Source: a virus
DNA length: 60,989 bases
IMG/VR virus record: IMGVR_UViG_3300020207_000025
Location: 1 to 60,989 of that record
Strand: one strand, 5' to 3'
In this document: piece after piece, positions 3,741 through 31,051 of the stretch
How positions within the stretch are numbered: the stretch's first letter is position 1
Layout of the letters: every line of letters begins with the position of its first letter
The notes under the pieces: model-generated
What the model was told of the DNA's origin: nothing
Databases searched by the model: none
The model's input: the letters and a program-made list of their open reading frames with translations, nothing else
Position numbers and translations under genes: made by a program

Positions 3741-3748
3741 TATAAATA
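3741..3748 (-). promoter_or_regulatory. TATTTATA upstream element
   Basis: The sense-strand TATTTATA lies 6 nt before the ATG of the SprB-repeat gene, inside a 26-nt gap that also holds the AT-rich stretch TTTTATAAAAG. Confidence 0.4.
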
Positions 3749-5174: not shown

Positions 5175-6965
5175 CTAACCCCAAATGAAGTCAGTCATAT
5201 ATTCATTCTCTACGTTTATGTTACTCGCACCTCTACAAACAGGTGTAGGTGTGGTCAAACTACTATTACATCCCGTACAATTTACATAGAAGATTGAAGG
5301 ACTGCCAAATACATTAGTCGAAGACGTTGAATAAGTCTGTCCTTGTGGCGGAGTATAAGGTTTACTAAACATACCAACATAATACCAACATGAACCTTGA
5401 TATGAGAATGATGTATTATAAGGTATCGGACCAACACTCACATCTTGACCAATCATAGTATTTGAACTACAAGATGCATATACAAAGACATTCTGTGGCA
5501 CACCCTGAGAGGTTGATGGTGTAATAGATGAAGTTATCGTTGGTGTTTGAGTTGGTGTTGGTGTATGTGTCTGAGTATTCGTTGGTGTTTGAGTCGGTGT
5601 ATATGTTGGTGTGGCAGTTTGAGACTGTGTAGGTGTCGGTGTTGGTGAAAGACATACACAACCTGGGTCTGCGTAAACATTCGCACCATCACCTGATACT
5701 ATATCAGCACTAACCGCACACACATTAACCCTTTCACGTCCATTTACAAACAAAGAATATGTTAATTTATCACAATCTTCAATTTCAAATTGAGCTCCTC
5801 GAGTACCGCCATATAATTCCCAATTCGTACAACACGGAGTAGTGGCACTCGGTGTTGGAGTATACGTTGGTGTAAAGTCAGGTGTACGTGAAATTGTCGG
5901 TGTTGGTGTTTGACTAATTTCTGGTGTATCTGAGACCGAAACAGTCGGTGTATGTGTTGGTGTTACCGCTGGTGTTTCTGATGCCGTTGGAGTTGGCGTT
6001 TGACTTACAGGTGGGGTATCAGAAAGAGATACAGTTGGTGTGTTAGTAGGTGTAGAGTCAGGTGTACGTGAAATTGTTGGGGTTGGTGTTTGACTAACAC
6101 CTGGTGTATCCGATACAGAAACAGATGGAGTATTTGTTGGGGTTACGGCAGGTGTTTCTGAAGCAGTTGGAGTTGGTGTTTGACTCACTGGTGGAGTATC
6201 AGAAAGAGATACAGTTGGTGTGTTTGTTGGTGTTACCGCAGGAGTTTCTGACGCTGTTGGTGTTGGTGTTGAACTTGAACCAGGAGTATCTGAAGGTGAA
6301 ACAGTTGGTGTATAAGTTGGTGTAATACTCGGAGTCATTGACTGAGTCATAGTCGGCGTATTAGATGGAGTAACCGTATTTGTTGGTGTGTTACTTGCAG
6401 TAATAGATGGTGTAATAGACGCAGTTGGAGTTACCGTTTGAGTAAGGGTTGGTGTTTGTGATGGAGGGTTAGATGGTGTAGGAGCTGGTGTACCCGTCGG
6501 AGTATTCGTAGCAGTTGCAGTTGGTGATGAGCCAGGTGTCGCAGAAACAGATATAGTTGGTGTATGTGTTGGTGTAACTGAAGGAGTTGCTGTTTGTGTT
6601 GGAGTTACTGTGGGAGTTGCCGTATTCGTTGGAGTCGGTGTACTACTCGGAGTATTTGAAGATACACACACACCACAGGTATTATAGACTCCATTGATTG
6701 ACATAACGTAGGAGTCAGGTGAACCATCAACATCACTATGATAAGTGAAACATTGAGTTACCTGTCCATTTGGTGTTTGTAATGTGGCTCTGAAGATATC
6801 CCCAATAGATATTGGATTTGTATTATATGAAAGGTCTCCATCAACATAAAAATAATTATTGGTATTACACTGTAATAATTTTTTAATATCATTACAACAT
6901 TCAGGTTGTTCACCAAATACATTAAAACCTACTCTTCCTGTTACCATTTTAGGTTCTTGTTCCAC
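5175..6965 (-). CDS. Pro/Thr-rich (mucin-like) multidomain virion protein
   Basis: A 596-aa protein. A folded N-terminal domain (about 1-100, with a CC pair and a CGVC motif) leads into a Pro/Thr/Ser tract of about 270 residues built on '[19 protein letters not shown]' cassettes. A small Cys-rich module begins [10 protein letters not shown] and ends in a CVC motif. A second PT linker and a C-terminal domain with further Cys residues follow. The [15 protein letters not shown] cassette also occurs in the 651-, 950- and 2204-aa proteins. Its start overlaps the protease gene by 17 nt, so the two are probably translationally coupled. PT tracts are expected to be extended and are plausible O-glycan acceptors; that is inference. 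Confidence 0.6.
5838..6650 (-). repeat. Pro/Thr-coding minisatellite tract (596-aa gene)
   Basis: A degenerate 6-nt (Thr-Pro) unit with higher-order cassettes of about 45 nt encoding the SVSDTP and SQTPTPT segments. Third codon positions vary freely while the peptide is kept. Confidence 0.75.
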
Positions 6966-8181
6966 CTTGCCAGTATGTGTTACCTGACAATTCCAAATTT
7001 ATGTCCCCACTAAGACCATTTACTATATGTAATTCAGTAGTCCCTGTATCTGAAAAGTAAACAGAATTACCCGTCCATGCGGAAATAGATAATTGCTCGG
7101 CAACTTTGTCAATGCGGTTCGCTAATCCATAAATAGTTTGACCGTTATAATTTGCACCGGCAAATACTAAACCAACAATCTTTCTTGTACCTGAAAAATC
7201 AGCTACCAAAGCAGAACCAGAATCACCACCATACACAGGATAAGGACATATAGAACCTGCAGGTGTTGTTGAAGCACTGGCGTAATATCTTATACAATCA
7301 CTGAAGTATATGGTTTCATTGACACCTTGATTATTATACTGAATACTTATGGTCGCGGCAACTGATGATGCAAATAACTTCATATCCCCCTCACCTTTAG
7401 GTCCTGTTGTACGACCAGCACTAAATAAGTTAATTCCATTGGTAACAAGACTATCAATTTCAGCGGTAGATGCAAATTCCAAAGGTTGAGTCCATCCATT
7501 CATACCATATTGTCTGTATGATGTCGTTGAACTAATATCACTTTGGTTTACAGTTGCTAATGCACCATCAACAGAGTTATATTCAGGAGTACCACTGATT
7601 GGTACATATCTTTTAACCAGACCAATCGAGTTTTGTAGACCACTGTTACCACTTTCATTAGGTTGAGTCACAAAATTATTCACAATATCTGTGTGTACTC
7701 CACTTTGTTGTCTTTCAGAGGCTAAGAACGCATTTTTTACCAATACATGATTATTAGAAACACCAACTAACGAATTAGTCTCAGTATCTACCGCCAAAAA
7801 CCCTAAAGTACCCACATAACTACCTAAATTAGTGTAATTTGTTACTGAAATACCACCTTGGAGTGGTCTAATCTGGTTTCTATTAGCAGGTGGAGTATTA
7901 ATCCACGTATAAAAATCTGAAGGGCAATTCTCCATGAAAACGAATTCACCTTCTTCAACATCCGTCTTTAATATTGACCCGTCGACCTCGATTTCTGATG
8001 GTAATAACTCATCTTCAGGTATTTCTTCCAATGGTCTTTTTTGTTTTACTGTAAAAACAACTGCATCTTCATCTGTCATCTTACCACCAACCGTTTTCTT
8101 TGTAATGGTCACACCCACCACATCCTCAGGGGTTATGTTATGGTAGTGTTTTGTTAGGTCTCTTAATAATTGGTTATCCAT
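6949..8181 (-). CDS. Trypsin-like serine protease
   Basis: A 410-aa chymotrypsin-fold protease. A plausible catalytic triad is visible: His145 in VSNNHVL, Asp205 in SVDGALA and Ser321 in YGGDSGSALV, the hallmark GDSG motif. The first 75 residues (VVGVTITKKTVGGK, then AVVFTVKQKRP and an EIEVDG turn) match the N-terminal domain often found before the protease domain in bacterial and phage members of this group. There is no signal peptide, so it should act in the host cytoplasm or as part of the virion. It lies directly after the 2757-aa Hint/PT protein (3-nt gap) and overlaps the next PT-rich gene, suggesting maturation of these fibres, or digestion of host surface proteins. The substrate is unknown. 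Confidence 0.8.
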   Translation of the reverse strand: MDNQLLRDLTKHYHNITPEDVVGVTITKKTVGGKMTDEDAVVFTVKQKRPLEEIPEDELLPSEIEVDGSILKTDVEEGEFVFMENCPSDFYTWINTPPANRNQIRPLQGGISVTNYTNLGSYVGTLGFLAVDTETNSLVGVSNNHVLVKNAFLASERQQSGVHTDIVNNFVTQPNESGNSGLQNSIGLVKRYVPISGTPEYNSVDGALATVNQSDISSTTSYRQYGMNGWTQPLEFASTAEIDSLVTNGINLFSAGRTTGPKGEGDMKLFASSVAATISIQYNNQGVNETIYFSDCIRYYASASTTPAGSICPYPVYGGDSGSALVADFSGTRKIVGLVFAGANYNGQTIYGLANRIDKVAEQLSISAWTGNSVYFSDTGTTELHIVNGLSGDINLELSGNTYWQGGTRT

Positions 8182-8184
8182 ATC

Positions 8185-11100
8185 TTAAAGGTTTGGTATA
8201 AACATAAATACTGTGAATGGTCCACCTTCAGTTGGAGTGACACTCGGAGTCGGGGTGTATGTTGGACTCACAGAGATTGATGGTGTATTTGTCGGACTAT
8301 TAGAAATCGTTGGAGTATTAGTCGGACTTACCGAAATTGTTGGCGTATTTGTTGGACTCACCGAAATGGTAGGTGTATTACTTGGACTTGGTGTTGATGT
8401 AATTGCAGGTCCACTACAACAGTTGTTACATATATTTGTTAATGTATATGCTGAAGTTGGATATTGAGGTGGGAATATTACTGTATTTTGTTGTGCACAT
8501 ATAGTAATAGTTGTCGGTACTTTATAGATAATACCATGTGACTGTCTTACAGTACCACATAATGTATCACTACACTCATCATACCAATATTCGAATAATC
8601 CTTCCGTACCCAATTTAGTAACTTCTAATTCATATACACTACAATCCTGTAAAATACTTGATGTTGATGGAGTTACTGTATGTGTCGGAGTAACAGTAGG
8701 TGTTGAAGTTACCGTAGGGGTTTGGGTTGATAATGGTGTATTAGTTGGTGTAGGACTTGGTGTTCCTCCCGGTGTTTGAGTAACTGTAGATGTTGGTGTA
8801 ATTGTTGCTGTATTTGACGGTGTCGGTGTATTAGATGACGTTACAGTTGCCGTTTGTGTTGGAGTGAGTGTCGATGTAGGTGTCGATGTTGGAGTTCCAC
8901 CAGGAGTCTCTGAAGGTGTAACGGTTTGTGTTACCGTTTGGGTTGGTGTATACGTAGGAGTAACACTTGAAGTAATAGACGGAGTAACTGTAACAGTTGG
9001 TGTTTGAGTTGCCGTCAATGATGGAGTTACCGATGGTGTCACAGAAGAAGTGATTGAAGGTGTCGGAGTTACTGTTGCCGTTTGAGTAGGGGTATTTGTT
9101 GGAGTACCACCTGGTGTCTCAGAAGGAGTTACCGTCTGAGTTGGAGTTGATGTTGGTGTTTCACTTGCAGTTACAGTTGGAGTTACAGAACCCGTAGGTG
9201 TATTAGTATTTGTTACCGTCGGAGTCACTGATGAAGTAACCGATGGTGTTGGCGTAATAGACGATGATGGAGTCACCGTTTGAGTCGGAGTAACTGAAGC
9301 TGTTGGAGTTACAGACGATGTCTGAGTAACCGTTTGTGTTGGAGTATTTGTTGGAGTAGAACCTGGTGTTTCTGACGGAGTAACAGTCTGAGTAGGTGTC
9401 AATGTTTGTGTATTTGACGGAGTAATAGTTGCGGTCAATGTAGGTGTAACACTTGCCGTTGGTGTAACTGATGCAGTTGGTGTCACACTCGCGGTTGGGG
9501 TAACAGAAGCCGTTGGAGTAACCGATGATGTAGGAGTATTTGTCGGTGTAACCTGAGGAGTCTCAGACGGAGTAACTGTTTGTGTTGGAGTTGACGTAGG
9601 TGTTTCACTCGCGGTCACAGTTGGTGTCACCGAAGCAGTTGGTGTATTCGTTGGTGTTTCAGTAGGAGTCGAAGTGACCGTAGATGTCACTGTTTGAGTT
9701 GGTGTACTTGTGTTAGTAGGTGTTACCGATGCTGTCGGAGTTACAGATGCCGTTGGTGTAACTGAAGATGTTGGAGTATTTGTAGGTGTCACCCCTGGTG
9801 TCTCACTCGCAGTTACAGTTTGAGTAGGTGTCAATGTTTGAGTATTTGACGGAGTGATTGTCGCAGTAATAGATGGAGTAACAGTCGATGTAGGCGTTAC
9901 CGAAGATGTTGGTGTTACTGAGGAAGTTGGAGTAACTGACGATGTAGGTGTTACAGATGCAGTTGGAGTATTCGTTGGGGTAGATATTGGTGTCTCAGAA
10001 GGTGTCACAGTCTGAGTAGGTGTAGATGTTGGAGTTTCACTTGCAGTGACAGTTGGGGTAACCGAAGCCGTAGGAGTCACACTCGCAGTAACCGTAGCCG
10101 TAACTGACGGTGTTGGGGTTACTGAAGATGATGGAGTCACTGTTTGTGTTGGTGTGACTGAAGCTGTTGGGGTTACAGATGAAGTCTGTGTAACTGTTTG
10201 TGTAGGAGTATTTGTTGGCGTAACCGCTGGTGTCGATGTCGGTGTCAACGTCGCAGTAACCGTAGGAGTAATAGTAGATGTAGGAGTAACTGATGCAGTT
10301 GGTGTTACACTTGCCGTTGGAGTGTTAGTTGGCGTCTCAGTTTGAGTTGGAGTCACTGAAGAGGTCGGAGTTACCGATGACGTAGGTGTGTTTGTTGGTG
10401 TCACACCAGGTGTTTCTGAAGGAGTAACAGTCTGAGTTGGAGTAGATGTGGGAGTTTCACTCGCAGTCACAGTAGGAGTAACTGAAGCCGTTGGTGTTAC
10501 ACTCGCAGTAATTGTTGCAGTCACAGATGGTGTAGGTGTAACTGATGAAGTAGGTGTTACTGAAGCCGTAGGTGTGACCGAGGCAGTTGGCGTAACTGAA
10601 GAAGTAGGTGTATTTGTAGGTGTACTTACAGGTGTTTCAGTAGGAGTAACCGTTTGTGTTTGAGTCACTGTTGGTGTATTACTTGCCGTCAATGTTGGTG
10701 TAACTGAAGCCGTAGGGGTAACTGTTGAAGTAACTGTCGCAGTTACCGATGGAGTTGGTGTATTTGATGTGGTTGGAGTAACAGAAGCAGTTGGCGTTAC
10801 CGATGCCGTTGGTGTGACAGATGAAGTCTGTGTTACCGTAGCCGTTGGTGTTGATGTAGGAGTCACTCCTGGCGTTTCAGAAGGTGTTACTGTTTGTGTT
10901 GGAGTAAATGTAGGAGTAACCGTCGCAGTAACAGTTGGGGTAATACTCGCTGTTGGTGTTACCGATGCCGTCACAGTAGCAGTCACTGAAGGTGTTGGCG
11001 TATTCGTTGGCGTCTCAGTCTGAGTCGGAGTGACCGATGAAGTAGGTGTTACGGAAGCAGTAACAGTTTGAGTCGGTGTAACAGTATTTGTTGGAGTAAC

Positions 11101-14100
11101 ACTTGCAGTTGGAGTGACTGATGAAGTCGGAGTATTCGTAGGTGTACTACCTGGTGTTTCTGATGGGGTTACTGTTTGTGTCGGAGTGAATGTAGGTGTA
11201 ACCGTAGCAGTAACAGTTGGAGTTATAGATGCTGTTGGCGTAACACTCGCAGTAATAGTGGCAGTCACAGAAGGTGTCAATGTCTGAGTTGGGGTTACTG
11301 AGCTTGTAGGTGTAACACTTGCCGTTGGAGTAACCGATGCAGTAACAGTTTGTGTTGGTGTTACAGTTTGAGTCGGCGTCACTGAAGCAGTTGGGGTAAC
11401 TGATGAAGTTGGTGTGTTAGTCTGAGTAACAGCAGGAGTTTCAGAAGCAGTCACAGTTTGTGTCGGTGTAAATGTTGGGGTTACAGTTGCTGTAACCGTT
11501 GGTGTGATACTTGCCGTTGGAGTGACTGATGCCGTCACTGTCGGAGTAACAGAAGCAGTAGGAGTATTAGTTGGCGTTTCAGTCTGTGTTGGAGTAACCG
11601 ATGAAGTTGGCGTATTTGTAGGTGTTAATGTAGGAGTAGGCGTAACACTTTGAGTTGGTGTAGGTGTCGGAGTTGGAGCAACAAAGATTACATCAACAGG
11701 ACAGGTACATGCGGAAGTGTTAACATTAGTAATACCCCAACTACTAATCACCTCACCAGGAGGAAGAATAGAATTAAAGTTATATTCAACTTGGTGGTCT
11801 CCAGCTGGCCATGTTCTCGTACCAGAATACGTAAATCCTGAACTACCAACCATATAACCACTAACCTCATAATCACATAAGGATTCTGCATTTACTGATA
11901 ATCCAGAATCTTGATATAAAGACAATCTAATCTTATCACCTTGTACCACATAACCCGTTAAATATTGAGTTGTCTGTGGACACGTTGCTGACGGAGTAAC
12001 AGTCTGAGTCGGTGTTGCCGTCGATGTAGGTGTTTGTGTTGGAGTGACAGAACTTGTTGGTGTAACACTTGCAGTTGGAGTAACTGATGCAGTAACAGTT
12101 TGTGTTGGTGTTACTGTTGATGTCTGAGTTACCGATGGAGTCACCGTTTGAGTTGGGGTAACTGAGGCAGTTGGAGTTACCGATGCTGTTGCTGTAACAG
12201 ATGAAGTCGGTGTATTTGTTTGTGTTACCGCAGGAGTCTCAGACGCAGTAACAGTTTGTGTTGGGGTAAATGTAGGAGTTACAGTAGCAGTAACTGTTGG
12301 AGTGATGCTCGCAGTTGGAGTAACCGATGCTGTTACGGTTGCCGTCACTGATGGTGTTGGGGTATTTGTTGGCGTCTCAGTCTGAGTTGGTGTGACAGAT
12401 GAAGTTGGAGTCACACTTGCTGTTGGAGTATTTGTAGGTGTCTCCGTTTGTGTAGGAGTGACTGATGAAGTCGGTGTAACTGATGATGTTGGAGTATTTG
12501 TAGGAGTGATTGCTGGCGTCTGTGAAGCAGTAACAGTTTGTGTTGGAGTAAATGTTGGGGTAACAGTTGAAGTTACAGTTGGTGTAATACTTGCCGTTGG
12601 TGTTACAGATGCCGTAACTGTTGCAGTTACAGAAGGTGTTGGAGTATTAGAAGCTGTTACTGTTTGAGTTGGAGTCACACTCGCAGTTGGAGTAACAGAG
12701 GCCGTTGGTGTCACACTCGCCGTAACTGTTTGAGTAGGTGTAACCGTGGCAGTTGGAGTAACAGAACTTGTTGGTGTATTAGTTGGAGTTATCGCTGGTG
12801 TTTCAGACGCAGTTACAGTCTGAGTAGGTGTGAATGTAGGTGTTACCGTAGCGGTCACTGTTGGGGTGATAGATGCCGTTGGTGTTACCGAAGCAGTCAC
12901 AGTGGCAGTAACAGAAGGTGTTGGAGTATTAGACGCGGTTACTGTTTGAGTTGGTGTTACGGAAGCCGTAGGAGTATTAGTCGGTGTGGTAGTATTAGAA
13001 GGTGTTACAGTATTAGTAGGTGTGACTGTTGACGTTGGAGTAACAGAAGCCGTTGGAGTATTAGTTGGTGTGATTGCCGGTGTAGATGAAGCCGTTACCG
13101 TTTGAGTCGGAGTAAATGTCGGAGTTACAGTTGCGGTGACTGTAGGTGTAATCGACGCAGTTGGAGTTACTGATGAGGTGACCGTAGGCGTCACACTGGC
13201 GGTTGATGTAAATGTAGGTGTCACTGTAGGAGTTACAGAACTTGTTACACTTGGAGTCAAAGTAGGTGTTGAAGAGGGAGTAAGGGTAGGTGTTGGTGTG
13301 AACTCAGCAGAACATACAACTCTTACATCATCAAGGAAGTTACCCAAACTCGTCGCAGTCGTCGAACTAAACATCAAGTTTAAGTTAGCATCAGGGGCAG
13401 TAAAAGTAACATACCTTAAATCCCATTGAGAAGTACTACCTGTAAATTCAGGTCCGACGAATTGTATACCATTAGTTGAACCAGATATAGCAACTCTCAA
13501 CCTATTTGCAGCACCACTCCTACCGCGATGTGCAAACTGAATCTGATAAGATTGTGATTGGATAGCATCAAAGTTTTGATATAGTGCTTGTGTAGAATCA
13601 TTAGCCGCTACCTCAGCAAAATAAGTACCCTGATAAGATGGGACACTTTGGAAACCTGTTCCCCATATCTCAATCTTATTATCACTGGCCGTAGTTTCCC
13701 ACGCTTGGATACATGATGCGTCAAATTGACCGTAACCACCAGCACCAGGTGCGGTACATCCATTTACAAAGGTTTCAAATCCTCCGTTGGTTAACTTACC
13801 ACAAGGTTCAGTGACCGATGGAGTAAGAGTTGGAGTTACAGTTGATGTTCTTGTCGGCGTATTCGAAGGAGTCACTGTATTTGTTGGAGTAACACTCGCA
13901 GTTGGGGTGTTTGTTGGGGTAACCGTATTAGAAGGTGTAACCGTATTTGTTGGAGTGTATGTTGGTGTGACTGTATTAGACGGAGTGACTGTATTAGTAG
14001 GTGTTACTGATGCGGTTGGAGTGTTAGTAGGAGTGACGGTATTCGATGGCGTTACCGAATTTGTGGGTGTTACGGAAGAGGTCGGTGTATTCGTAGGAGT

Positions 14101-16458
14101 GACGGCTGGTGTCGAAGATGCGGTTACCGTTTGAGTCGGAGTATAAGTTGGAGTTACCGTAGCAGTAACAGTTGGTGTGACTGATGCTGTTGGTGTTACA
14201 GACGCAGTTACTGTTGCCGTAACTGAAGGTGTCGGAGTATTAGAAGCGGTAACTGTTTGTGTTGGAGTAACTGAAGCGGTTGGAGTGACGGACGATGTAG
14301 GCGTATAAGTTGGTGTCACTGTATTAGATGGTGTAACCGAAGCTGTTACCGTTGCCGTTGGAGTTATTGTCCTCGTTGGGGTATTTGTTGGGGTAGCAGT
14401 GTTAGAAGGGGTAACTGACGGAGTAGCCGTAGTTGAAGGGGTTAGTGTTGCAGTCTTAGTCTGAGTAATAGTTGCAGTAATAGTAGGTGTTACCGAAGCG
14501 GTAGGTGTATATGTTGGAGTTACTGTATTCGTAGGTGTATTACTTGGCGTGACTGTATTTGTAGGTGTAACCGTATTTGTTGGTGTAACAGATGCAGTTG
14601 GAGTATTTGTCGGCGTCTCAGACGCAGTAGGAGTATTAGTCGGAGTTACTGTATTGGTAGGAGTATATGTTGGTGTAACAGTATTAGATGGTGTGACTGT
14701 ATTAGTCGGCGTAACAGACGGAGTTACCGTATTTGATGGCGTAACAGATGGGGTGACAGTATTAGATGGTGTGACTGTATTAGTTGGTGTTACAGATGGG
14801 GTAACCGTATTAGATGGAGTGACTGTATTGGTAGGGGTATAGGTAGGTGTAACAGTATTTGACGGTGTTACCGTATTAGAAGGGGTAACAGAAGAGGTTG
14901 GTGTATATGTAGGAGTCCTTGTAGGAGTTCTCGTAGGTGATACCGATGGAGTAACAGAAGGAGTTGCCGTTCTTGTTGGTGTACGTGTCGGTGTTCTCGT
15001 AGGCGATACTGATGGTGTGGCAGTTCTTGTTGGAGTTCTTGTCGGCGATACTGATGGTGTAACAGAAGACGTAGGTGTCACGGGTGGTGTAGTAGACGGT
15101 GTAACCGATGGTGTTGGTGTAGGTGAAGGACATGTTGGGCACTCACCATAATTACAAATATCTTCAATCCAACTACCTGCATCAATAAATACGTCAGGAG
15201 TACCAGTTGAATTTGTTACAATAGCATAACATTTATTATTACCCAATGGATTGATAACACCATCACCTTGGTACAATACGGTACCCGCTTGAACTGACAC
15301 TATTATAGTATCATTTGAATCACAACAATTCGCCAATAAGTATTTATTAATTGCAGGTGTAGAAGTGGGTGTAGGTGTAGGTGTTTTTGTCGGTGTTCTT
15401 GTTGGTGTTCTCGTAGGTGTCGGTGTTGGGGTTGCAGATACAGGTGTATCACCACAACAACTGGTACATGTTTCAAATACAGACGCAGTACATGAAGCCG
15501 CAGATTCACAATCAGGAACCACACCCTCAACAAAATAACAACACCCGTCACATCCGTCTAACTTTACAACCTGACCAGCATTAGGACATGGAGAAAGGTT
15601 AGTTATCGTTACAAATTGATTAGCCAAAGCATAACTACAATTAGAACAGTTACCAGGGTCTATTTGGTCACAGGGTATTAAGTAGACACAACAAGGGTTA
15701 TTAATGTTTGTAACATCATAACCGTCACCTGGTGGCATACCCGGCTCATAGGCAATTGGACCCTCTTGACCTTGACAGGCATCACATCCCCCACCTGGAT
15801 AAGTGGTTACAACACTACCAACAAATGAAACATTAGCCTGAGGACAATTCTCAGCACAAGAACCAGTGGCAATTACTTCCCAACAAGCGTTAATATTATC
15901 AATAAAGGAATCACCAATTGAAAAATTGTAGACATTCTGAATACAAGCGAAGTTACTACCAGTACGACAGTCTACGATACATGCAAACCCAACATTATGA
16001 ACAATATAACCATCAAGAAAATAATAATTTGGACCACTTAACGTAAAGTTATACAATGGGTCCATCGAATAAACAATTTCTTTGGATGTGACAGGTTCAT
16101 GAGTAATTTCACCATTAACCATCCTAACCAAATCATAATCACCCCCAACAATAAAATTTAAGGTCTGAACAAAACGATACTCACCTGAAGGTTTGTGATA
16201 ACCTAAAAGATGTTCGTCAATAACCCCCAAGTCATTTATCTGAAGGTAATTTCCCTGATATTGATAGACATCAACAACTTCAGGAGTCTGAACATCTTCA
16301 ATATTAAGTGTTAATGATTGTATTTCGGTAAAATCAATACCTGTTACAATTTCAGGTATATCGAAAGACAGAACTTGGTCCCCGAGTTGGATGTTTTCTA
16401 TCGCAACCTGAGAACCATCAGATAATAAAACTTTTTGTCCTAATTTATATCCTGCCAT
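8185..16458 (-). CDS. Giant mucin-like Pro/Thr-rich protein with N-terminal Hint domain
   Basis: A 2757-aa protein, the largest in the window. Residues 1-157 form a Hint (hedgehog/intein-like) domain: KVLLSDG, then [14 protein letters not shown], ending [14 protein letters not shown] Cys-rich region (158-340) follows, then very long Thr/Pro/Ser tracts split by three or four folded islands. One, beginning [12 protein letters not shown], is galactose-binding-like with the signature FAHRGRSG and a closing [11 protein letters not shown] second begins [13 protein letters not shown] Cys-rich domain lies near the C-terminus, which ends [10 protein letters not shown]. There is no signal peptide or sortase motif. 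The gene is preceded by a 46-nt gap holding TATTTATA and nested inverted repeats. It follows directly on the glycan-modification operon, so the tracts are candidate substrates. It is probably a long fibre, whisker or capsid-decoration protein. Confidence 0.7.
8203..8210 (-). promoter_or_regulatory. TATTTATG variant of upstream element
   Basis: The sense-strand TATTTATG lies 21 nt before the protease ATG, within the last codons of the 2757-aa gene. It is a one-base variant of the recurrent octamer and weaker evidence than the exact copies. Confidence 0.25.
8660..11677 (-). repeat. Main Pro/Thr-coding repeat tract of the 2757-aa gene
   Basis: About 3 kb of 6-nt Thr-Pro/Ser-Val type units. Higher-order units of about 45-57 residues recur, containing [33 protein letters not shown] and [13 protein letters not shown]. 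Codon third positions differ between copies, so DNA identity is much lower than peptide identity. Confidence 0.8.
11988..13300 (-). repeat. Second Pro/Thr-coding tract of the 2757-aa gene
   Basis: About 1.3 kb between the CPQTTQ domain and the galactose-binding-like domain. It contains several copies of the [19 protein letters not shown] higher-order unit. Confidence 0.75.
13300..13810 (-). other. Galactose-binding-like (beta-sandwich) domain within the 2757-aa protein
   Basis: A folded island of about 170 residues: LTNGGFETF at the start, [52 protein letters not shown], and the closing [11 protein letters not shown] close paralogue lies in the 2204-aa protein. This type of domain is typical of secreted, carbohydrate-associated proteins; ligand binding is inferred. 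Confidence 0.6.
13811..15130 (-). repeat. Third Pro/Thr-coding tract of the 2757-aa gene
   Basis: About 1.3 kb on the N-terminal side of the galactose-binding-like domain. It is dominated by short [16 protein letters not shown] units, so its repeat phase differs from the two other tracts. Arg-containing TRTPT units occur near 14900-15060. Confidence 0.75.
15988..16458 (-). other. Hint domain lacking the N-terminal nucleophile
   Basis: Residues 1-157 show the Hint pattern ([38 protein letters not shown]). The Cys or Ser that normally starts the domain aligns with Gly3, and no N-extein exists. The terminal His154-Asn155 is kept and is followed by Val rather than Cys, Ser or Thr. Splicing looks impossible, but Asn-driven release of the Hint domain remains conceivable. 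Confidence 0.65.
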
Positions 16459-16476
16459 TTCCTGATACCCTTAACC

Positions 16477-16484
16477 TATAAATA
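16477..16484 (-). promoter_or_regulatory. TATTTATA element inside inverted repeats
   Basis: The sense-strand TATTTATA lies 18 nt before the 2757-aa ATG. It sits in the loop of nested inverted repeats: CCTGATAC at 16461-16468 with GTATCAGG at 16502-16509, and TTAACC at 16471-16476 with GGTTAA at 16488-16493. It is a candidate promoter or operator, or an RNA hairpin in the leader. Confidence 0.45.
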
Positions 16485-16504
16485 ATCGGTTAACCCCTTT
16501 TGTA

Positions 16505-18403
16505 TCAGGATTCTTTCCTTAAACTTCCGTCGTAATGGTCAAATCTATCATGTTCTGTTGGACTTAATAATAAGATACCTGGATTAATGTTTCCTTTGAT
16601 TGTTTCTTGGAACATATAAGACATCCATGTTTGTTCATATGGACGAGCCCATTTCTCAGTTAGGAACATCTTTTCGTTACCGTATTTTGACACCACTTGA
16701 GGCCAGTTACAGTAATATATCTCACCATGAGCAAAGGGGATACCTTGGAAGGAATCCACCTTAGTCAGTTTTGTTTTTGGTGCATTTGGGTCCAACCCTT
16801 GAACAGGTAAGTTTGGTTTTTCAGGCCAATGTTCTTCTCTAATATGTTGAGGTACATTGTACCACGCCCACTGTACTCTGTTATCACCATAGAATTCGGT
16901 GAATGATAGTTTTACGAAATCAAAGTTGTTTTTCTTTGCAATTTTAAGAGAATTTCTATAAAGATTTTTAACATATCTATTGAATCCATTCTTACATACC
17001 TCACCCTGTTTTGGATAGAAGAACATATCATCTTCAAAGAAGAAATAATAGTCAAAACCTCTTTCTTCAGCATCCTCAGCAATCCATTGACGACCACCAC
17101 AAATACCTAAGTTGTCTTTCTTAACATAAATCATGTTATATTCTTCAGCCATCTCTTCATACTCAGGTGATGTTGATAAATCCGTTGAATTATCCAACAT
17201 TACCCACTGTGGTTTCGTTACAAAATCTTCATCGTATTGTTTCATTGATTCAATCAATGTTCTTACCTGATTAGGACTGTTAAATGTAATCACATAAAGA
17301 CCCACATTGTCAATATCCAAATCGTTGGTGATGATTTCAAACTTCGCTTCGTGTAATGGTTTGTGATTGTCATTTTTAACGTCTTCAAAGAACTTATTAA
17401 TTAATCCGTTACCATTGATTGGGAAATACTGATAATTTTCAGGGTATCTATACAACAATAATGTGAATAAAGACTCTTCCGTACCCATATATCCCTCATT
17501 TAGGGTAGATTTCATAATACCGTAGTATTCGTTGTTGAAATCAGCAATATCTTCAATAGGTCCACCGAAGAAACCACCACGACAAACCTTATTGACCTTA
17601 GCCCTGGCAATTTCATTCATCTTTTTAATTTCAAATCCGTGAATTTCAGTGTCAGACTCGTAAGGGAATGCCACGAAAGTCATCTTATCAATCTTTGTCA
17701 ATTTGTCTAAGACTCTATCGTGAGTAAAGTACCCTGAATGTACCGTGTTAGTGATACCCGCATCCAACCAGAATAAGTGTGTTGAACCAAACTTATCCAT
17801 AATCTTAGCATCATGTAATAAATAAGGTTTTGACATCACCAATGGATTATACATATCTAACCTACCTTGAGTAGACTCCGATAACCACCCTACTTGGTTT
17901 TGCCAATCAGGGTTTGTTCGGATTCTTTGAATCGGTTCATAGAATTCTCCTTTGAACCAGTCTTGGCTACGACCAATGAATTGTGTGTTTTCATCAGTTC
18001 TTCTTTCCATGACAAAATCTCTTAATTCTTCATCACCAAACACAATCATGTTGTAAGGTATCTTAAGAATCTCGTCAAATTTCTCTAAATAATGTTCAAA
18101 ACTACGTGACCATCCTTCTCCTAATTCATCACGTTTGATGTTCCATAAACCTGTAACTATAGTAATTCCATTGTTTTCCATTTCTCCGTAAAGTTCTTTG
18201 TATATGTAATTTTTTATTCCGACGATGTCTCCACCTTCTAATCCATAAACATAATCATGTTCATCAAATTTTTGTATGATTTTTTCCTTATCTTCATCAA
18301 CTAAACTTGACCATTCTAACCTCACAACTTTTGGTGAATGTCTTTCAAAATCAATTTGTTTGAAAATGGTATAATCATGTCCTTCAGCGTCAATTTTTAT
18401 CAC
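16505..18403 (-). CDS. FkbM C-terminal half fused to HtrL/YibB-like and GT-A glycosyltransferase domains
   Basis: 632 aa from a GTG at 18403. Residues 1-70 (IKIDAEGHDYTIF onward) are the C-terminal half of an FkbM SAM methyltransferase whose N-terminal half is the upstream gene. Residues 75-340 resemble HtrL/YibB-type glycosyltransferases (ITIVTGLWNIKRDE, NMIVFGDEEL, HLFWLDAGI). Residues 365-630 look like a family-2 GT-A glycosyltransferase: VGLYVITFNSPNQVRTLIES, VMLDNSTD, NLGICGGRQW and the acidic EDDMFF metal and sugar-nucleotide motif. The GTG start overlaps the upstream stop, but codons before it, read in this frame, still encode KHEILAYDV, so the true protein is probably a roughly 785-aa trifunctional enzyme interrupted at 18426-18429. 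Likely role: adding and methylating sugars on a virion or cell-surface glycan. Confidence 0.7.
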   Translation of the reverse strand: MIKIDAEGHDYTIFKQIDFERHSPKVVRLEWSSLVDEDKEKIIQKFDEHDYVYGLEGGDIVGIKNYIYKELYGEMENNGITIVTGLWNIKRDELGEGWSRSFEHYLEKFDEILKIPYNMIVFGDEELRDFVMERRTDENTQFIGRSQDWFKGEFYEPIQRIRTNPDWQNQVGWLSESTQGRLDMYNPLVMSKPYLLHDAKIMDKFGSTHLFWLDAGITNTVHSGYFTHDRVLDKLTKIDKMTFVAFPYESDTEIHGFEIKKMNEIARAKVNKVCRGGFFGGPIEDIADFNNEYYGIMKSTLNEGYMGTEESLFTLLLYRYPENYQYFPINGNGLINKFFEDVKNDNHKPLHEAKFEIITNDLDIDNVGLYVITFNSPNQVRTLIESMKQYDEDFVTKPQWVMLDNSTDLSTSPEYEEMAEEYNMIYVKKDNLGICGGRQWIAEDAEERGFDYYFFFEDDMFFYPKQGEVCKNGFNRYVKNLYRNSLKIAKKNNFDFVKLSFTEFYGDNRVQWAWYNVPQHIREEHWPEKPNLPVQGLDPNAPKTKLTKVDSFQGIPFAHGEIYYCNWPQVVSKYGNEKMFLTEKWARPYEQTWMSYMFQETIKGNINPGILLLSPTEHDRFDHYDGSLRKES

Positions 18404-18864
18404 GTCATACGCAAGTATTTCATGCTTTTCAGAAGACTATCTAATGTTATTGTCGGTACTGTAATTCTTGTACCATATTTCTCAACAGTTTCTCTATCAC
18501 CTTCACTACCCAACCCATTCTTTGGTGGATATATTGCACTCATCCCCATAAAACAAGCATGAATCTTACCTTCTTCAATCGCAAAAGGATTGATGGTAAC
18601 CATTTCCACCTCACCATTTTGGTCAGATACTGCCGCATTTTCAAACTTATGTCTGTCACCCAAATTCTTAACTAATTTTTGAAAGTAATATGGAATTGGT
18701 TCAACATATAAACCAGTGAATTGATATGCATTGGTGTACCCAATCAACTCGTCAAAAGTTTGACCGTCCATTGCACCAATATTAAGTGTAAAAAGTTTGT
18801 GACCTTGTTTACCTAAGTGGTGTAAGGCTTCATTGAAATAATCTGTTCTCTCTAATACCACCAT
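18400..18864 (-). CDS. FkbM-family methyltransferase, N-terminal half (frameshifted)
   Basis: About 154 aa from the ATG at 18864, which overlaps the preceding stop as TAATG; an ATG at 18894 would add 10 residues. SAM-binding and FkbM signatures are present: TLNIGAMDGQTFDEL, LYVEPIPYYF, NAAVSDQNGEV and TITLDSLLK. The family then normally continues to a 'KIDVEG' motif, which here sits in the -1 frame as VIKIDAEG at the start of the next gene. After DSLLK this frame gives only SMKYLRMT before the stop. The break maps to the AAAA run at 18426-18429. FkbM enzymes O-methylate hydroxyls on sugars and secondary metabolites. Without the second half this piece would lack part of the fold. Confidence 0.75.
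   Translation of the reverse strand: MVVLERTDYFNEALHHLGKQGHKLFTLNIGAMDGQTFDELIGYTNAYQFTGLYVEPIPYYFQKLVKNLGDRHKFENAAVSDQNGEVEMVTINPFAIEEGKIHACFMGMSAIYPPKNGLGSEGDRETVEKYGTRITVPTITLDSLLKSMKYLRMT
18426..18429 (-). other. Probable frameshift point in FkbM-glycosyltransferase gene
   Basis: The sense sequence CTGAAAAGCATG reads LKSM in frame 0, while AAGCATGAA in the -1 frame reads KHE and continues through ILAYDVIKIDAEG. One extra A in the run, or a -1 slip here, restores one continuous FkbM domain. The site is not a canonical X-XXY-YYZ slippery heptamer. Confidence 0.6.
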
Positions 18865-19391
18865 TATGTTAAGACTATAAAGTTTTTCTGCCACCCCTCA
18901 TATTGTGTCCATGTTTTCCCTAAAAGTTCTGCAGTTTCAATCGCAAAGTTGTACTCATCTTCTCTGTGAGTATCATCCATAATAATTGGCACATCCGTAT
19001 TGAATCTATCCCAATACTTCGCAATATTATTTCTCGTTTTTTGTTGGTCAATGTTTGGTGGACCATCTACAATAATCAAAGAATATTCTTCTGGTAATGA
19101 ATTAAATACCACTTCAGGGTCATACCATCCGTCAACAATTTCAGCTAAAATGTAATTTGCTTTTGGTGCCAACCTTGTAAATCTCTCCTGATGTTCAATA
19201 GGATAAACAATATGGTATCTACTTAACTCAATAGTTCCACTACCACTACCAAATTCAATAATAGTTTCACCTTGGGGGATATTATCAAGAATCCACTCAT
19301 AACATTCAACAGATATCGCCCATCCATCGAGGTTATTAAAGTTAATGTCTCTTGCTTTTAGTTTTGGATAAATTTCATTTAATCTATTCAT
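18864..19391 (-). CDS. SAM-dependent methyltransferase-like protein
   Basis: A 175-aa protein with a Rossmann methyltransferase core. TIIEFGSGSGTIELS (about 42-56) is the glycine-rich SAM-binding loop, YPIEHQERF follows the second strand, and YSLIIVDGPPNIDQQKTRNN (about 103-122) carries the D-G-P-P segment usual in class I methyltransferases of this type. The length is short for the class but the core is complete. The start (19391) overlaps the upstream stop as ATGA and its stop overlaps the downstream ATG as TAATG, so it is a coupled member of the glycan operon. The substrate is unknown; a sugar hydroxyl or carboxyl fits the context. Confidence 0.7.
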   Translation of the reverse strand: MNRLNEIYPKLKARDINFNNLDGWAISVECYEWILDNIPQGETIIEFGSGSGTIELSRYHIVYPIEHQERFTRLAPKANYILAEIVDGWYDPEVVFNSLPEEYSLIIVDGPPNIDQQKTRNNIAKYWDRFNTDVPIIMDDTHREDEYNFAIETAELLGKTWTQYEGWQKNFIVLT

Positions 19392-20266
19392 AATTGGTCA
19401 AAAAATGTGTAAAAACTGATTTTATCTTTTAAGAACTCAGGAGTTACAGATTTATCAGTCATTGAAGAATCATCGTGATACCAAGTATTGAACTTATATG
19501 AACGATAATTTTCAGGTTTATCGTAAACCATAGTAGACATCATGGCTTCATGGTTTAATAAAAATTCTTTTGTTAATGCAGTCTGAGCATAGTCCTCAAA
19601 CCTTTGGAAAAAGTCAGGTAATTTACTTACATGACCTCCAATAATACCACCAATAGATAATGAATCATACATATGGTCTTTATCTAATATCTCATTAAGT
19701 TTTCTGTGGTCGTGGAAGAATAAAGTATTTCTAATATCAATCAATTTATCACCCACCCAATTGTTAATCTTTGGGAACGTTTCAGTATTAAAAATACCAT
19801 CATAAGTGTACCTATATTTATTTACTGAAAGACCTGTAATCTTATCCGCGTTTGAGTTGTATCTTCTCGGATACAAACCAATATGTGATAATCCACAATC
19901 AATCCAATATAGATAATCTAAACCCTCTTCCATTTCATCTTCCATCAAAGCAATTTTAGCCCAACCAACTTCCAAATAAAATTTGAACTTATCAGGGTTC
20001 TTTTCTTTGATTTCAATCATCTTTTTACTGTGACGGATATCTTCCAATTCTTTTACTTTGATGGTTACATTGGTCACCCCATTTTCATCAAGGAAATCTT
20101 GTAACGCCTCTGCAGTATTTGAACCAGTATAACATACAATAGGTAAACCCATCTGAGATAGTTGTACCAACGAATTGATATACCTGTCCCAACGGGCTTG
20201 AACCTTATGACCGAAGAATGGGAAATCCCCCAATCCGAAATATAAAAATGTTACTAATTTTGTCAT
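19388..20266 (-). CDS. HtrL/YibB-like glycosyltransferase
   Basis: About 292 aa starting at the ATG at 20266 (MTKLVTFLYFGLGD). I chose this over the ATG at 20299 because it forms an ATGA overlap with the upstream stop, and the 11 extra residues lie inside the neighbouring gene. The pattern matches the HtrL/YibB group of bacterial glycosyltransferase-like proteins: FLYFGLGDFPFFG, ARWDRYINSLVQLSQMGLPI, a VCYTGSN strand, then LDYLYWIDCGLSH, the acidic active-site-like segment. A related domain lies in the fused gene two positions downstream. It probably adds a sugar, perhaps on the same glycan. Donor and acceptor are unknown. Confidence 0.65.
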   Translation of the reverse strand: MTKLVTFLYFGLGDFPFFGHKVQARWDRYINSLVQLSQMGLPIVCYTGSNTAEALQDFLDENGVTNVTIKVKELEDIRHSKKMIEIKEKNPDKFKFYLEVGWAKIALMEDEMEEGLDYLYWIDCGLSHIGLYPRRYNSNADKITGLSVNKYRYTYDGIFNTETFPKINNWVGDKLIDIRNTLFFHDHRKLNEILDKDHMYDSLSIGGIIGGHVSKLPDFFQRFEDYAQTALTKEFLLNHEAMMSTMVYDKPENYRSYKFNTWYHDDSSMTDKSVTPEFLKDKISFYTFFDQL

Positions 20267-21834
20267 TTTTTGAAGTAGTAATCCTCTAATAAGAGACAAT
20301 CCATCTCTGTTTTATCATACACCTTAAATGCATCTGAGTATCTTGATAAGATTGGTTTACCGTTTACGTTGAATGAAGTATTCAACAATACACCAATACC
20401 CGATTTCTTTTCAAACTCAGTCAATAAGTTATACAACCAAGGATTTTGTTCTTCAGTTACAGTTTGAACACGAGCAGTACCATCAACGTGAGTGATAGAA
20501 ACTAATTTTTCTCTCCACTCTTCTTTAACCGTTGGACAGAAACTCATCCATCTACTCTCACCCTCAAAGTCAAAGTACTTTTCAACATCCTCCAACTTAC
20601 AAACAGGTGCAAATGGTCTGTACCACTCTCTGTTTTTAACCTTAGCATTCAAAATATCTTTCATATCAGGATATGCTGGGTTACAAATGATACTACGGTT
20701 GCCCAACGCTCTCGGTCCGTGTTCTGAGGTACCTCTAACAACACCAACGATACTACCGTTAGCCAAGTCATCAGTCAATGTATCAATACTCAACTCACGA
20801 CCACGTCTTTCCTCAACGTGAGACATCAATGTATGTTTATCCAACACAGGTACACCCGCATATGTTACGTCAACAGCCTTCTCAGGTTTCATATGATTCA
20901 AAATCATACCTGTAGCAATACCACAGTCATTAGGGTTAGGTGGAACAAACACAGGACGGTCCAATATCTGTTGTAGTTTGGTGTTAAGAAGTATATTAAG
21001 AGCACACCCACCAACTGTAATCAACGGAATATTTGGATACTCATCCAAAAACGGTTGAGCCATCTCCATGAAAACATTCTCAAAAGCAATTTGTGATGTT
21101 TTGGCAACATCCCAAGATGTCTGTCCTGTCAATCGGTTATTAATATCAAAAACCAACCCCGTTTGTTCACCTAATTCACCTAAAAACTTGATATAGTTCA
21201 AACCATCAGGTTTTCTTCTATAGTAATTCTCAAAGTGTGGTAACCAATCTTCATTTACCTCACCATAAGAACATAATCCCATGATTTTTCCTGAATAGAC
21301 TAAGTTACCAATATTCAATGCAGGTTCCTTACGGATATCACCCAAGTAATCACCGAATGACATATAAGGGAAACCTAAATCTAAATTATATTTGTCCAAT
21401 AACGTAATTGTTTCCCTATCAGAAGCGTGATATACATTGAAGAAACCATCATTACCTCCTCCATCAAAAGAGATAATCAAAGCTTCATCGTAATCAGTTT
21501 GATATAGACCACAAGCCGCGTGACTCAAATGGTGAAGACAGTTAATGTGTTCTTTAGCAGGAATAAGTTTCTCATAGTGAACTTTAGTTCCACCTTCCAA
21601 AGTATCTGAGTTTAAGTAGTAACACTTATCATACTCAGAAATTCCATATTCATCTTCAATAAATTTTAAGATATGTTTAAGTAGATAAGGTCTTGTATAT
21701 GAAACCAAATACTGTGCATAACCCGCATTCTTTTCACTTAAAAATCTTTCTACTTCAATTACTGTAATTAATTCTCCATTCTCCTCAACCGCTACCGCTG
21801 CGTTGTGGGAACCATAAAACGCTATATTCGCCAT
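20263..21834 (-). CDS. Carbamoyltransferase, NodU/CmcH/TobZ family
   Basis: A 523-aa protein with both family domains. The N-terminal Kae1/YgjD-like part has HHLSHAACG (101-109, metal-binding His pair), SFDGGGNDG (122-130) and GKIMGLCSYGE. The C-terminal YrdC-like part has SEHGPRALGNRSI, VDGTARVQTV and GVLLNTSFNVNGKPI. These enzymes make carbamoyl-AMP from carbamoyl phosphate and ATP and transfer the carbamoyl group to a hydroxyl, usually of a sugar or antibiotic. Key motifs all look intact. Length is slightly below the usual 550-600. The ATG at 21834 overlaps the upstream stop as TAATG. In this operon it probably carbamoylates a glycan on the virion or host surface. NodU-like enzymes are known from other marine phages. 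Confidence 0.9.
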   Translation of the reverse strand: MANIAFYGSHNAAVAVEENGELITVIEVERFLSEKNAGYAQYLVSYTRPYLLKHILKFIEDEYGISEYDKCYYLNSDTLEGGTKVHYEKLIPAKEHINCLHHLSHAACGLYQTDYDEALIISFDGGGNDGFFNVYHASDRETITLLDKYNLDLGFPYMSFGDYLGDIRKEPALNIGNLVYSGKIMGLCSYGEVNEDWLPHFENYYRRKPDGLNYIKFLGELGEQTGLVFDINNRLTGQTSWDVAKTSQIAFENVFMEMAQPFLDEYPNIPLITVGGCALNILLNTKLQQILDRPVFVPPNPNDCGIATGMILNHMKPEKAVDVTYAGVPVLDKHTLMSHVEERRGRELSIDTLTDDLANGSIVGVVRGTSEHGPRALGNRSIICNPAYPDMKDILNAKVKNREWYRPFAPVCKLEDVEKYFDFEGESRWMSFCPTVKEEWREKLVSITHVDGTARVQTVTEEQNPWLYNLLTEFEKKSGIGVLLNTSFNVNGKPILSRYSDAFKVYDKTEMDCLLLEDYYFKK

Positions 21835-23102
21835 TATAATGTACCTGTTAGTCTATCACACCATCCTTTTGAAGTTGAATACGGCCAAACAACCCAATAA
21901 GCTGGTTTTTCAGTTATGTTAAATTGTCTCCAAACTTTACAATACCCATCAGGGTCATTCATCATTCGGTCAATCTCTGCTTTGTCAGCATCCTTTCTGT
22001 AAATAGTGTTATCTTCCTTATCGTGGAACGCAACAACCCAATATTCATAATCTTTTTCAGGTACTTGGTCGTAACCGACATCAATACAGTGTTTATAGAT
22101 GGTAGCAAAACTTTCCAACCACTCTTCTTTAGTCTCAAATGAATCAATACCAGGGTTAGGTGGATAGTTCTTATCCAAAGTGTATTGTTGTACACCTCTT
22201 TTACTAAATTTCAATCCTGAGAATTCTTCATATTCTTCCAAAGACCTTACAGGACCAAAACCATATTTACCTTCGTGACCTTCTTGAGATTCACCGTCCA
22301 TACCAAACAACTTTCTGTTTGTTAGGTGTGATGTGTTGTTTTTACTTACCCAATCTTTGTCATCATCCCATTGTTTTGTTCTACCTTTACGAGTGTATTC
22401 GTGCCAAATCAAGACTTTGTGTGGGTGGAACATATCATAACCCCATGTGAACGCTCTTGCCGCGATTGAAATCTCCTCACCGTGGAAATAGTATTCAGGG
22501 TTGTGTTGTACCTCTTCACTGAATTCACCCAAAGTGAAACAGAAGTGTGCCGAGTAGAATCTCGCAGGAACAGGTGTGTCTAATTCTCTCCAACCTGGAA
22601 TAGTTTCAGGTAAAAAGAATACCGCTCCTTCAGGAATGAATCGGTCAAAGACCATTCTCCATGGTTCCTGAACTCTTGCGCCAGGGTCATTTTCAGGGTC
22701 AAATGATGATACATAACCCGTCAATAAAGGCTTTGGAATACCCATACCTTGAAGTTGTTTTACCATCGCAATCATCTCAACATCCCAATCCTTAGCGAAT
22801 CTCATGTGTGAGTCAATCTGTAAGGTATACATCTCACCACCATACATTTGTTGAATCTGATGTCTTGCCCAACATGCCCCTTTAGATTCTTCATAAGGAA
22901 CATCTAAAATGCGGAATCTTTCATCATCACGGTACTTATCCAAATTATCAAATCCATCCTCAGGATGGTATTGTCTACAAATCCCTAATATAACATTTTG
23001 GGGACGTTTTGCGTTTTTTAACATATCTTCAATAGTATTGACCAACTCAGGGTCACGATATGACGCAATCTGTACGAAAATTTTCTGTGCTCTTCTTGCC
23101 AT
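21834..23102 (-). CDS. GlcNAc-transferase-like glycosyltransferase (Skp1-GnT type)
   Basis: A 422-aa GT-A enzyme. IFVQIASYRDPELVNTIEDM at 8-27 is the opening motif of the UDP-GlcNAc-dependent group that includes the Skp1 hydroxyproline GlcNAc-transferase. VILGICRQYH and ACWARHQIQQMYGGE follow. LQIDSHMRF (95-102) is the D-S-H form of the metal-binding DXD motif, and YFHGEEISIAARAFTWGYD with WHEYTR completes the acceptor side. It is the first gene of the modification operon, with a 63-nt divergent gap to the plus-strand 57-aa gene. In eukaryotes this group acts on protein; here a protein acceptor such as the Thr/Pro-rich tracts is possible but unproven. Confidence 0.75.
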   Translation of the reverse strand: MARRAQKIFVQIASYRDPELVNTIEDMLKNAKRPQNVILGICRQYHPEDGFDNLDKYRDDERFRILDVPYEESKGACWARHQIQQMYGGEMYTLQIDSHMRFAKDWDVEMIAMVKQLQGMGIPKPLLTGYVSSFDPENDPGARVQEPWRMVFDRFIPEGAVFFLPETIPGWRELDTPVPARFYSAHFCFTLGEFSEEVQHNPEYYFHGEEISIAARAFTWGYDMFHPHKVLIWHEYTRKGRTKQWDDDKDWVSKNNTSHLTNRKLFGMDGESQEGHEGKYGFGPVRSLEEYEEFSGLKFSKRGVQQYTLDKNYPPNPGIDSFETKEEWLESFATIYKHCIDVGYDQVPEKDYEYWVVAFHDKEDNTIYRKDADKAEIDRMMNDPDGYCKVWRQFNITEKPAYWVVWPYSTSKGWCDRLTGTL

Positions 23103-23165: not shown

Positions 23166-23339
23166 ATGAAACTACTTAAAACAATAAAAAGATTAGTTAA
23201 AGAGTCAGAAGAAAACTTGGACCAAGCTATACAAAATAGTGCAACTCCAAAAGAAGTTAAGGCTCTTGAAGAAAGCTATACAGAATCGTTAAATCTACTT
23301 TCACTATACGAAAGTATTGAAAACGAAAAAGAGGACTAA
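23166..23339 (+). CDS. Small charged protein, only plus-strand gene
   Basis: 57 aa from ATG 23166 to TAA 23339, beginning MKLLKTIKRLVKESEENLD and ending IENEKED. The first 12 residues are basic and amphipathic; the rest is mostly acidic and probably helical. It is judged real because it has the same TATTTATA element just before its start, lies in an otherwise empty inter-operon region, and ends directly at a strong hairpin terminator. It diverges from the glycan operon and converges on the 980-aa fibre gene. No family is recognised. Confidence 0.6.
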   Translation: MKLLKTIKRLVKESEENLDQAIQNSATPKEVKALEESYTESLNLLSLYESIENEKED

Positions 23340-23357
23340 TTTCTTAATCCTCTTTTT
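23326..23357. terminator. Bidirectional terminator between convergent genes
   Basis: AAAAAGAGGA (23326-23335) pairs with TCCTCTTTTT (23348-23357) around a 12-nt loop, giving a U-run after the stem on both strands. It serves the plus-strand 57-aa gene and the minus-strand 980-aa fibre gene, whose stop is at 23391. Confidence 0.8.
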
Positions 23358-31043: not shown

Positions 31044-31051
31044 TATAAATA
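31044..31051 (-). promoter_or_regulatory. TATTTATA upstream element
   Basis: The sense-strand TATTTATA lies 16 nt before the ATG of the 557-aa fibre gene, inside the 28-nt gap. Confidence 0.4.

Follow-up and report, generated by a model that had tools for sequence, protein, structure and literature searches.

Organization of the locus

The window analyzed here is the linear IMG/VR virus record IMGVR_UViG_3300020207_000025 (60,989 bases; positions are numbered over the whole stretch), in which an operon of glycan-modifying enzymes is followed by a gene for a giant protein rich in Pro/Thr (PT) tracts (Table 1). The main genes of the window all lie on the minus strand, and the operon (16505-23102) sits between two tail-region gene groups. 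We place it in the tail region on the basis of baseplate wedge matches (55423-57261 and 57268-57732) and tail-protein matches (26438-29308). The glycosyltransferase (GT) genes are thus linked to virion genes, as is expected of phage virion glycosylation, both by this tail/baseplate context and by adjacency to PT proteins.

Adjoining operon genes overlap by 1-37 nt, and the giant PT open reading frame (ORF) begins 46 nt past the last stop of the operon. The initial annotation, made from the letters of the window, had described overlapping genes for glycosyltransferases, a carbamoyltransferase, and an S-adenosylmethionine (SAM) methyltransferase, followed within 46 nt by a 2757-aa Thr/Pro/Ser protein. 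The ORFs and family matches agree with this description (for the methyltransferase, on motif reading), and 2107 residues of the giant fall within PT tracts. The gene order is identical in a 297-kb relative (G022), whose enzymes are 82-92% identical to those of the window (the FkbM piece, 71%) and whose PT giant gene also begins 46 nt past the HtrL-GT2 stop. A protease had also been noted after the giant; its ORF is present in the window (6949-8181) but is not conserved, as G022 has no protease at the corresponding place after its PT giant. We read the protease as an accessory insertion outside the conserved cassette unit and do not count it as a member of the system.

Table 1. Features of the window and the evidence for each assignment
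Feature	Position	Strand	Basis
GT1, GT60-like (PF11397 "GlcNAc") glycosyltransferase, proposed Thr/Ser initiator on PT tracts	21834..23102	-	PF11397 E 3.8e-68; phrog_24687; DxH; model
NodU/TobZ-type O-carbamoyltransferase	20263..21834	-	PF16861 E 8.9e-64, PF02543 E 5.8e-19; phrog_1601
HTR1, HtrL-like glycosyltransferase	19388..20299	-	homologs inside most cassettes
MT, SAM-dependent methyltransferase-like protein	18864..19391	-	motif reading; also in G022, L006
FkbM methyltransferase N-terminal piece, frame broken	18400..18894	-	PF05050 positions 2-108
FkbM C-terminal piece + HtrL_YibB (~80-326) + GT2-like (~366-632)	16505..18403	-	PF05050 positions 117-173; PF09612 E 3.4e-13
Giant PT-rich protein, 2757 aa, Hint-like N-terminus	8185..16458	-	composition, segments; homolog in G022
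Trypsin-like protease ORF, after giant PT gene	6949..8181	-	phrog_20754
Second PT-rich protein, 359 tract residues, likely co-substrate	5175..6965	-	tract scan; phrog_15511
PT-rich tail-region protein, 532 tract residues, likely co-substrate	31056..33908	-	tract scan; homolog with PT610 in G022
PT-rich tail-region protein, 348 tract residues, likely co-substrate	34041..35996	-	tract scan
2204-aa protein, SprB + DUF642-like modules, PT linkers (430 tract residues), likely co-substrate	36064..42678	-	phrog_2973 Hoc-like
TATTTATA motif, 26 nt upstream of giant PT gene	16477..16484	-	common to structural genes
TATTTAT(A) examples, minus-strand gene starts	2339-2346, 3741-3748, 16477-16484, 31044-31051, 36013-36020, 57737-57744		intergenic gaps

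GT1 resembles enzymes that initiate mucin-type glycosylation

The first enzyme of the operon, GT1, belongs by sequence to PF11397, which we take to be CAZy family GT60 (the DxH motif agrees): in a profile search, it scored 231 bits against a curated cut-off of 21. This result upholds its earlier noted resemblance to the Skp1-type GlcNAc-transferase group. The D97-S98-H99 triplet (DxH instead of DxD) is invariant in 31 of 31 sequences, the others being 38-92% identical to the GT1 of the window. Searching the Protein Data Bank (PDB) by sequence gave no match for GT1. Its AlphaFold2 model (predicted local distance difference test [pLDDT], 91) matched ppGalNAc-T2 best (E 3.1e-10), followed by T4 and other animal homologs, with full-length TM-scores of 0.4-0.5 and catalytic-domain alignments of ~280 columns at 4-5 Å, i.e., a GT-A fold close to that of GT27. 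A survey of GT-A enzymes found DxH in place of DxD in GT27 and GT60, both of which O-glycosylate Ser/Thr of polypeptides (PMC7185993), and glycosylation of Trypanosoma cruzi mucins starts with alpha-GlcNAc on Thr, added by a pp-alpha-GlcNAcT (PMC3769586). Judged from sequence and model, GT1 is related to the enzymes by which protists and animals initiate mucin glycosylation and is, by homology, a putative GlcNAc-to-polypeptide transferase.

Accompanying enzymes of the cassette

The carbamoyltransferase is 92% identical in G022 and 72% identical in a cassette of the bacterium Jiulongibacter, and MT, for which no Pfam match was found, is 84% identical in G022. HTR1 alone matched neither Pfam nor PHROG; its true start is probably near 20266, because the G022 homolog begins 11 codons later. 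No cassette enzyme has a strongly hydrophobic, membrane-like segment.

The last gene had been described as an FkbM-HtrL-GT2 fusion. This is its form in six relatives (L325, L006, L051, L055, L063, and L332), where FkbM, HtrL, and GT2 lie within one ORF, so intact FkbM copies exist. In the window record, a frameshift near 18,400-18,430 divides FkbM (PF05050) over two ORFs, and no complete PF05050 domain occurs in a single frame; either the assembly is at fault here or the mutation is real. The HtrL-GT2 model (pLDDT 87.9) contains two GT-A domains, and its best PDB matches were the collagen lysyl hydroxylase/glycosyltransferase LH3, ColGalT1, chondroitin polymerase, and LARGE1. The low full-length TM-scores (~0.25) reflect a different arrangement of the domains, and these matches suggest two GT-A domains and nothing finer. 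HtrL-GT2 has at least 574 relatives in viruses.

The PT tracts have the composition of mucin-type acceptors

The 2107 tract residues of the giant are distributed over five tracts (aa 321-382, 428-892, 1042-1506, 1579-2611, and 2674-2755) and consist of 37.6% Thr, 16.8% Pro, and 12.8% Ser (792, 354, and 269 residues, respectively). Thr and Ser together number 1061, and charged residues (D/E/K/R/H) merely 55. The tracts are thus Thr/Ser/Pro-rich, weakly charged, and, to judge from composition, disordered, as mucin-type acceptors are. The hexamer TASVTP occurs 52 times in the giant in 51 DNA spellings with ordinary codon usage, which argues that the protein sequence of the tract is conserved and not the DNA; a tandem-repeat artifact was rejected on the same grounds. 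Four further proteins of the window carry PT tracts of 348-532 residues each.

The N-terminus of the giant matched a Hint domain weakly (E 6.6e-4; 20.2 bits against a cut-off of 32.1). The region thus resembles a Hint/intein domain but starts with MAGYK, ends with HN-VG, and has no catalytic Cys/Ser nucleophile at these splice positions. Elsewhere, loci L179, L126, and L153 encode PT tracts of 4628, 4194, and 3620 residues, exceeding those of the window; PF11397 was not found in records G057 (L126), G066 (L153), or G067 (the contig that also holds L179).

The cassette is associated with PT tracts across viruses

At least 391 relatives of GT1 are present in IMG/VR. In the loci of the best 80, GT1 stands first, the HtrL-GT2 double GT stands last in nearly all, and the middle genes vary. 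Of these middle proteins, 119 match GT25, GT10, GT11, GT2, GT7C, PLOD-type GT, and DegT families in Pfam, in addition to FkbM and rhamnosyl-type methyltransferases and carbamoyl- and sulfotransferases; they are enzymes that build glycans. A PT tract of at least 40 aa was found within 10 kb, inside the fetched locus, in 77 of the 80 GT1 loci and, once GT1 was clustered at 95% identity, in 38 of 39 clusters. Two of the three remaining loci have short upstream sequence (L014 and L030), and the record of the third (L018) holds six PT matches elsewhere. The median gap between cassette and PT gene was 70 nt over the 83 loci analyzed, with 66 loci within 300 nt; a directly adjoining PT ORF lay upstream only in 42 loci, downstream only in 18, and on both sides in 9. 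When the search was begun from HtrL-GT2, a scan that overlaps in part with the one begun from GT1, 62 of the 63 loci whose upstream sequence was long enough contained GT1, and the median PT gap was 78 nt.

Larger records gave a similar picture. The codon pattern for TPTxxxTPT occurred in all 22 large GT1 records (3-275 matches each; reversed pattern, 0-1), 11 of which had been reached without selection for PT. All 11 of the large records selected by GT1 were PT-positive, compared with 2 of 16 random records (Fisher p 6e-6), and one of those two was a simple DNA repeat. Conversely, 21 of 50 records chosen for PT hold a full-length GT1, and a close GT1 was found in none of the 16 random records. 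Remote PF11397-like matches were seen in two of the 16, one of which (G016) also has PT matches. The initial annotation had proposed a survey of related phages for the joint occurrence of such enzymes with long PT proteins; no adequately long cassette record lacked a PT tract. Collectively, these counts show that the arrangement did not come about by chance; the enzyme nearly always occurs with PT tracts, and PT tracts are broader than the enzyme, so that the association is one-directional.

Cultured phages and bacterial genomes

Among 50,697 phage records, GT1 was found only in XacN1, CM1, and RAS14. XacN1 and RAS14 share the module GT1-carbamoyltransferase-HtrL-HtrL-GT2, and the GT1 homolog of XacN1 is ORF334 (46% identical). 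PT-pattern matches numbered 53 in XacN1, 19 in RAS14, and 0 in 13 GT1-negative comparison phages (Fisher 0.0095), which were jumbo relatives by polymerase and relatives of the window by baseplate wedge. The PT proteins of XacN1 adjoin head-completion and tail-sheath genes, and PT tracts also occur in a 2823-aa protein annotated as a phosphodiesterase. The GT1 neighborhood had suggested that XacN1 lacks PT proteins; this was rejected, since the tracts lie elsewhere in the genome. At least two glycoproteins are reported in the XacN1 particle proteome (PMC5852040). In its available portion, that report names two GTs and gives neither a link to PT tracts nor a match for the PT-bearing ORFs searched. 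Our literature search, with most subscription journals outside its scope, found no paper on PT-tract glycosylation in phages.

The pairing also occurs in bacteria. A Jiulongibacter sediminis gene for a 262-aa protein, 156 residues of which form a PT tract, lies between a PF11397 gene and a GT1-carbamoyltransferase-FkbM/HtrL/GT2 cassette, and in a second Spirosomataceae genome an orthologous PT protein lies between two PF11397 genes. Both proteins start with a signal that, read by eye, is twin-arginine-like, so cytosolic modification could precede export. A Saprospiraceae contig carries GT1 and HtrL-GT2 adjoining a PT protein with a type IX secretion system (T9SS) sorting domain. In Burkholderiaceae, PF11397 genes lie near RHS proteins and VgrG proteins ending in (TP)n, (TEPPP)n, (PEPST)n, or (EEPAASD)n, and glycosylation of the VgrG tails is possible in these type VI secretion system (T6SS) clusters. 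PF11397 is rare in both families: it was found in 6 of 300 genomes from Burkholderiaceae and in 6 of 222 from Spirosomataceae, where the family labels derive from the named loci that served as centers.

Two side observations concern these bacterial loci. The orthologous PT proteins L332:8941-9729 and L382:7388-8416 have tracts of 156 and 225 residues, with both ends conserved. Burkholderiaceae T6SS clusters in which a PF11397 GT lies near RHS and VgrG with low-complexity Ser/Thr/Pro C-terminal tails are L340, L341, L342, and L345.

A promoter-like motif and the gap before the operon

TATTTAT is present in 9 of the 13 intergenic gaps of the window, where 0.7 would be expected, and mostly stands 12-26 nt ahead of a gene start; TATTTAT(A) is a possible phage promoter element. 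As TATTTATA, it precedes the giant PT gene; it was not found before GT1 and the enzyme operon. The giant PT gene thus shares the motif with the structural genes and the enzymes lack it, which suggests that the enzymes and their presumed PT substrate may be timed separately. A T4-type late promoter (TATAAATA) before GT1 was rejected, as the match belongs to the opposite strand and genes on the minus strand have TATTTAT as their motif. The gap ahead of the operon contains a 57-aa plus-strand ORF (23166-23339), preceded on its own strand by TATTTATA, with a terminator-like hairpin at 23326-23357; sequence related to this gap exists in G022. In addition, the baseplate wedge protein of the window has 100% identical counterparts on contigs from other metagenomes (L204-L207), so this phage, or one very closely related to it, recurs.

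Discussion

We postulate that the cassette is a phage-encoded mucin-type O-glycosylation system acting on the PT tracts of virion proteins, and we put the probability of this at about 72%. It is the best reading because a mucin-initiating enzyme family is paired with the classic kind of acceptor, and the pairing is repeated in dozens of further phages and in certain bacteria. The system would be cytosolic: GT1, as a GT60-family polypeptide GT, would place the first sugar (by homology, alpha-GlcNAc) on Thr/Ser of the disordered tracts of tail-region virion proteins, chiefly those of the giant. Extension of the glycan would then fall to the HtrL-like GT together with the two-domain HtrL-GT2 protein, and the FkbM/SAM methyltransferases and the NodU-type carbamoyltransferase would cap it, giving extended, hydrophilic, and variable glycan brushes. 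Particles of these viruses would thus probably bear a mucin-like, sugar-coated layer. We infer the donor, the linkage, the order of steps, the virion location of the PT proteins, the capping groups, and the benefit, which could be adhesion, shielding, protease resistance, or antigenic variety. The core of the earlier proposal, that the operon decorates PT tracts, survived every genomic test run; two details did not, as the protease falls outside the unit and the FkbM fusion is broken here.

Several observations weigh against this interpretation. PT tracts do not need GT1, as 29 of the 50 PT-positive records, several of them longer than 150 kb, lack PF11397. Tracts from GT1-positive and GT1-negative records showed no significant difference in composition, and no GT was found among 45 neighbors in GT1-negative PT records, many of these loci being short pieces. 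Common lineage may account for the presence of both traits in large aquatic phages, and the random control is small (16 records). The XacN1 particle glycoproteins, as described in the available portion of PMC5852040, are not assigned to PT proteins. In bacteria, 4 of the 6 PF11397-positive Spirosomataceae genomes showed no PT neighbor, and no VgrG tail was seen at some Burkholderiaceae PF11397 loci.

The presence of compositionally similar tracts without PF11397 would also fit an alternative in which the targets of the cassette are different virion proteins (capsid, tail tube, or fiber knobs) and the PT tracts are plain flexible linkers that share the tail region. Glycosylation of the capsid and tail tube is indeed known in mycobacteriophages, according to work cited in PMC12619734. 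We consider this alternative unlikely, since the PT neighbor is kept across cassettes whose middle genes differ, the tracts were found in every adequately long GT1 record tested, and the pairing recurs beside small PT proteins in bacteria, which have no capsid. Somewhat less likely still is that the enzymes act on host surface glycans (O-antigen, lipooligosaccharide, or capsule), for instance in superinfection exclusion. HtrL, GT25, GT10, and DegT genes are frequent in polysaccharide loci, and all four families are represented among the middle genes; FkbM enzymes and carbamoyltransferases, moreover, modify small glycans or metabolites. Yet the operon is embedded within a tail gene cluster, its initiator is a polypeptide GT of the GT60/GT27 type, and no flippase, polymerase, or lipid-carrier transferase appears in the top 25 Pfam families of the 119 middle genes. 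DNA hypermodification, in which the GTs and the carbamoyltransferase would decorate hydroxymethylated bases, is very improbable, and we rejected it as the principal explanation. The C-terminal GT domain does match phrog_842 (hydroxymethylcytosine [HMC] glucosyltransferase, E 3.6e-5) and PF20691 TAGT (E 0.0086, below the cut-off), but both matches are weak, and a search run without a positive control found TET/JBP in 0 of 14 cassette records. In addition, the fold matches are to protein and polysaccharide GTs, and cassette copies on bacterial chromosomes adjoin exported PT proteins.

Mucin-type O-glycosylation of PT tracts has parallels in known systems. Initiation by protist GT60 enzymes (T. 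cruzi TcOGNT-2 and Dictyostelium Gnt2) and by the Skp1 GlcNAc-transferase shares with the phage cassette PF11397/GT60, DxH, Thr-rich disordered mucin acceptors, and later diversification of the glycan, whereas the phage version, known here from its genes, is soluble, lies in an operon with its presumed substrate, and adds methyl- and carbamoyltransferases. The animal ppGalNAc-transferases (GT27) provide the best solved fold over the catalytic domain and likewise combine DxH with mucin-type Ser/Thr acceptors, but GT1 is only ~10-15% identical to them and has no identified lectin domain, and we do not claim GT27 membership. Virus-encoded GTs and methyltransferases also make the virion glycan of Chlorella virus PBCV-1, where the acceptor, unlike PT tracts, is the major capsid protein of a eukaryotic virus. 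In mycobacteriophages, phage-encoded GTs modify virion proteins as well, but the sugars are on the C-termini of capsid and tail-tube subunits and not on long PT tracts, as cited in PMC12619734. A parallel in culture is XacN1, which has the same cassette and, as far as PMC5852040 describes them, glycoproteins in its particles.

It is about an even chance that GT60 together with PT tracts forms a general prokaryotic and viral module for mucin-type O-glycosylation, acting on tail-region virion proteins in phages, on the Ser/Thr/Pro tails of VgrG in the T6SS of Burkholderiaceae, and on PT proteins exported by Tat-like signals or the T9SS in Bacteroidota, with swappable middle enzymes providing glycan variety. 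If PT-tract glycosylation is confirmed, the long Thr/Pro-rich proteins of many large aquatic phages would gain a first function, and a mucin-initiating enzyme family would be seen at work in bacterial viruses. A changing outer sugar coat would then explain the variable genes between two fixed GTs. As XacN1, CM1, and RAS14 have already been isolated, the idea is directly testable.

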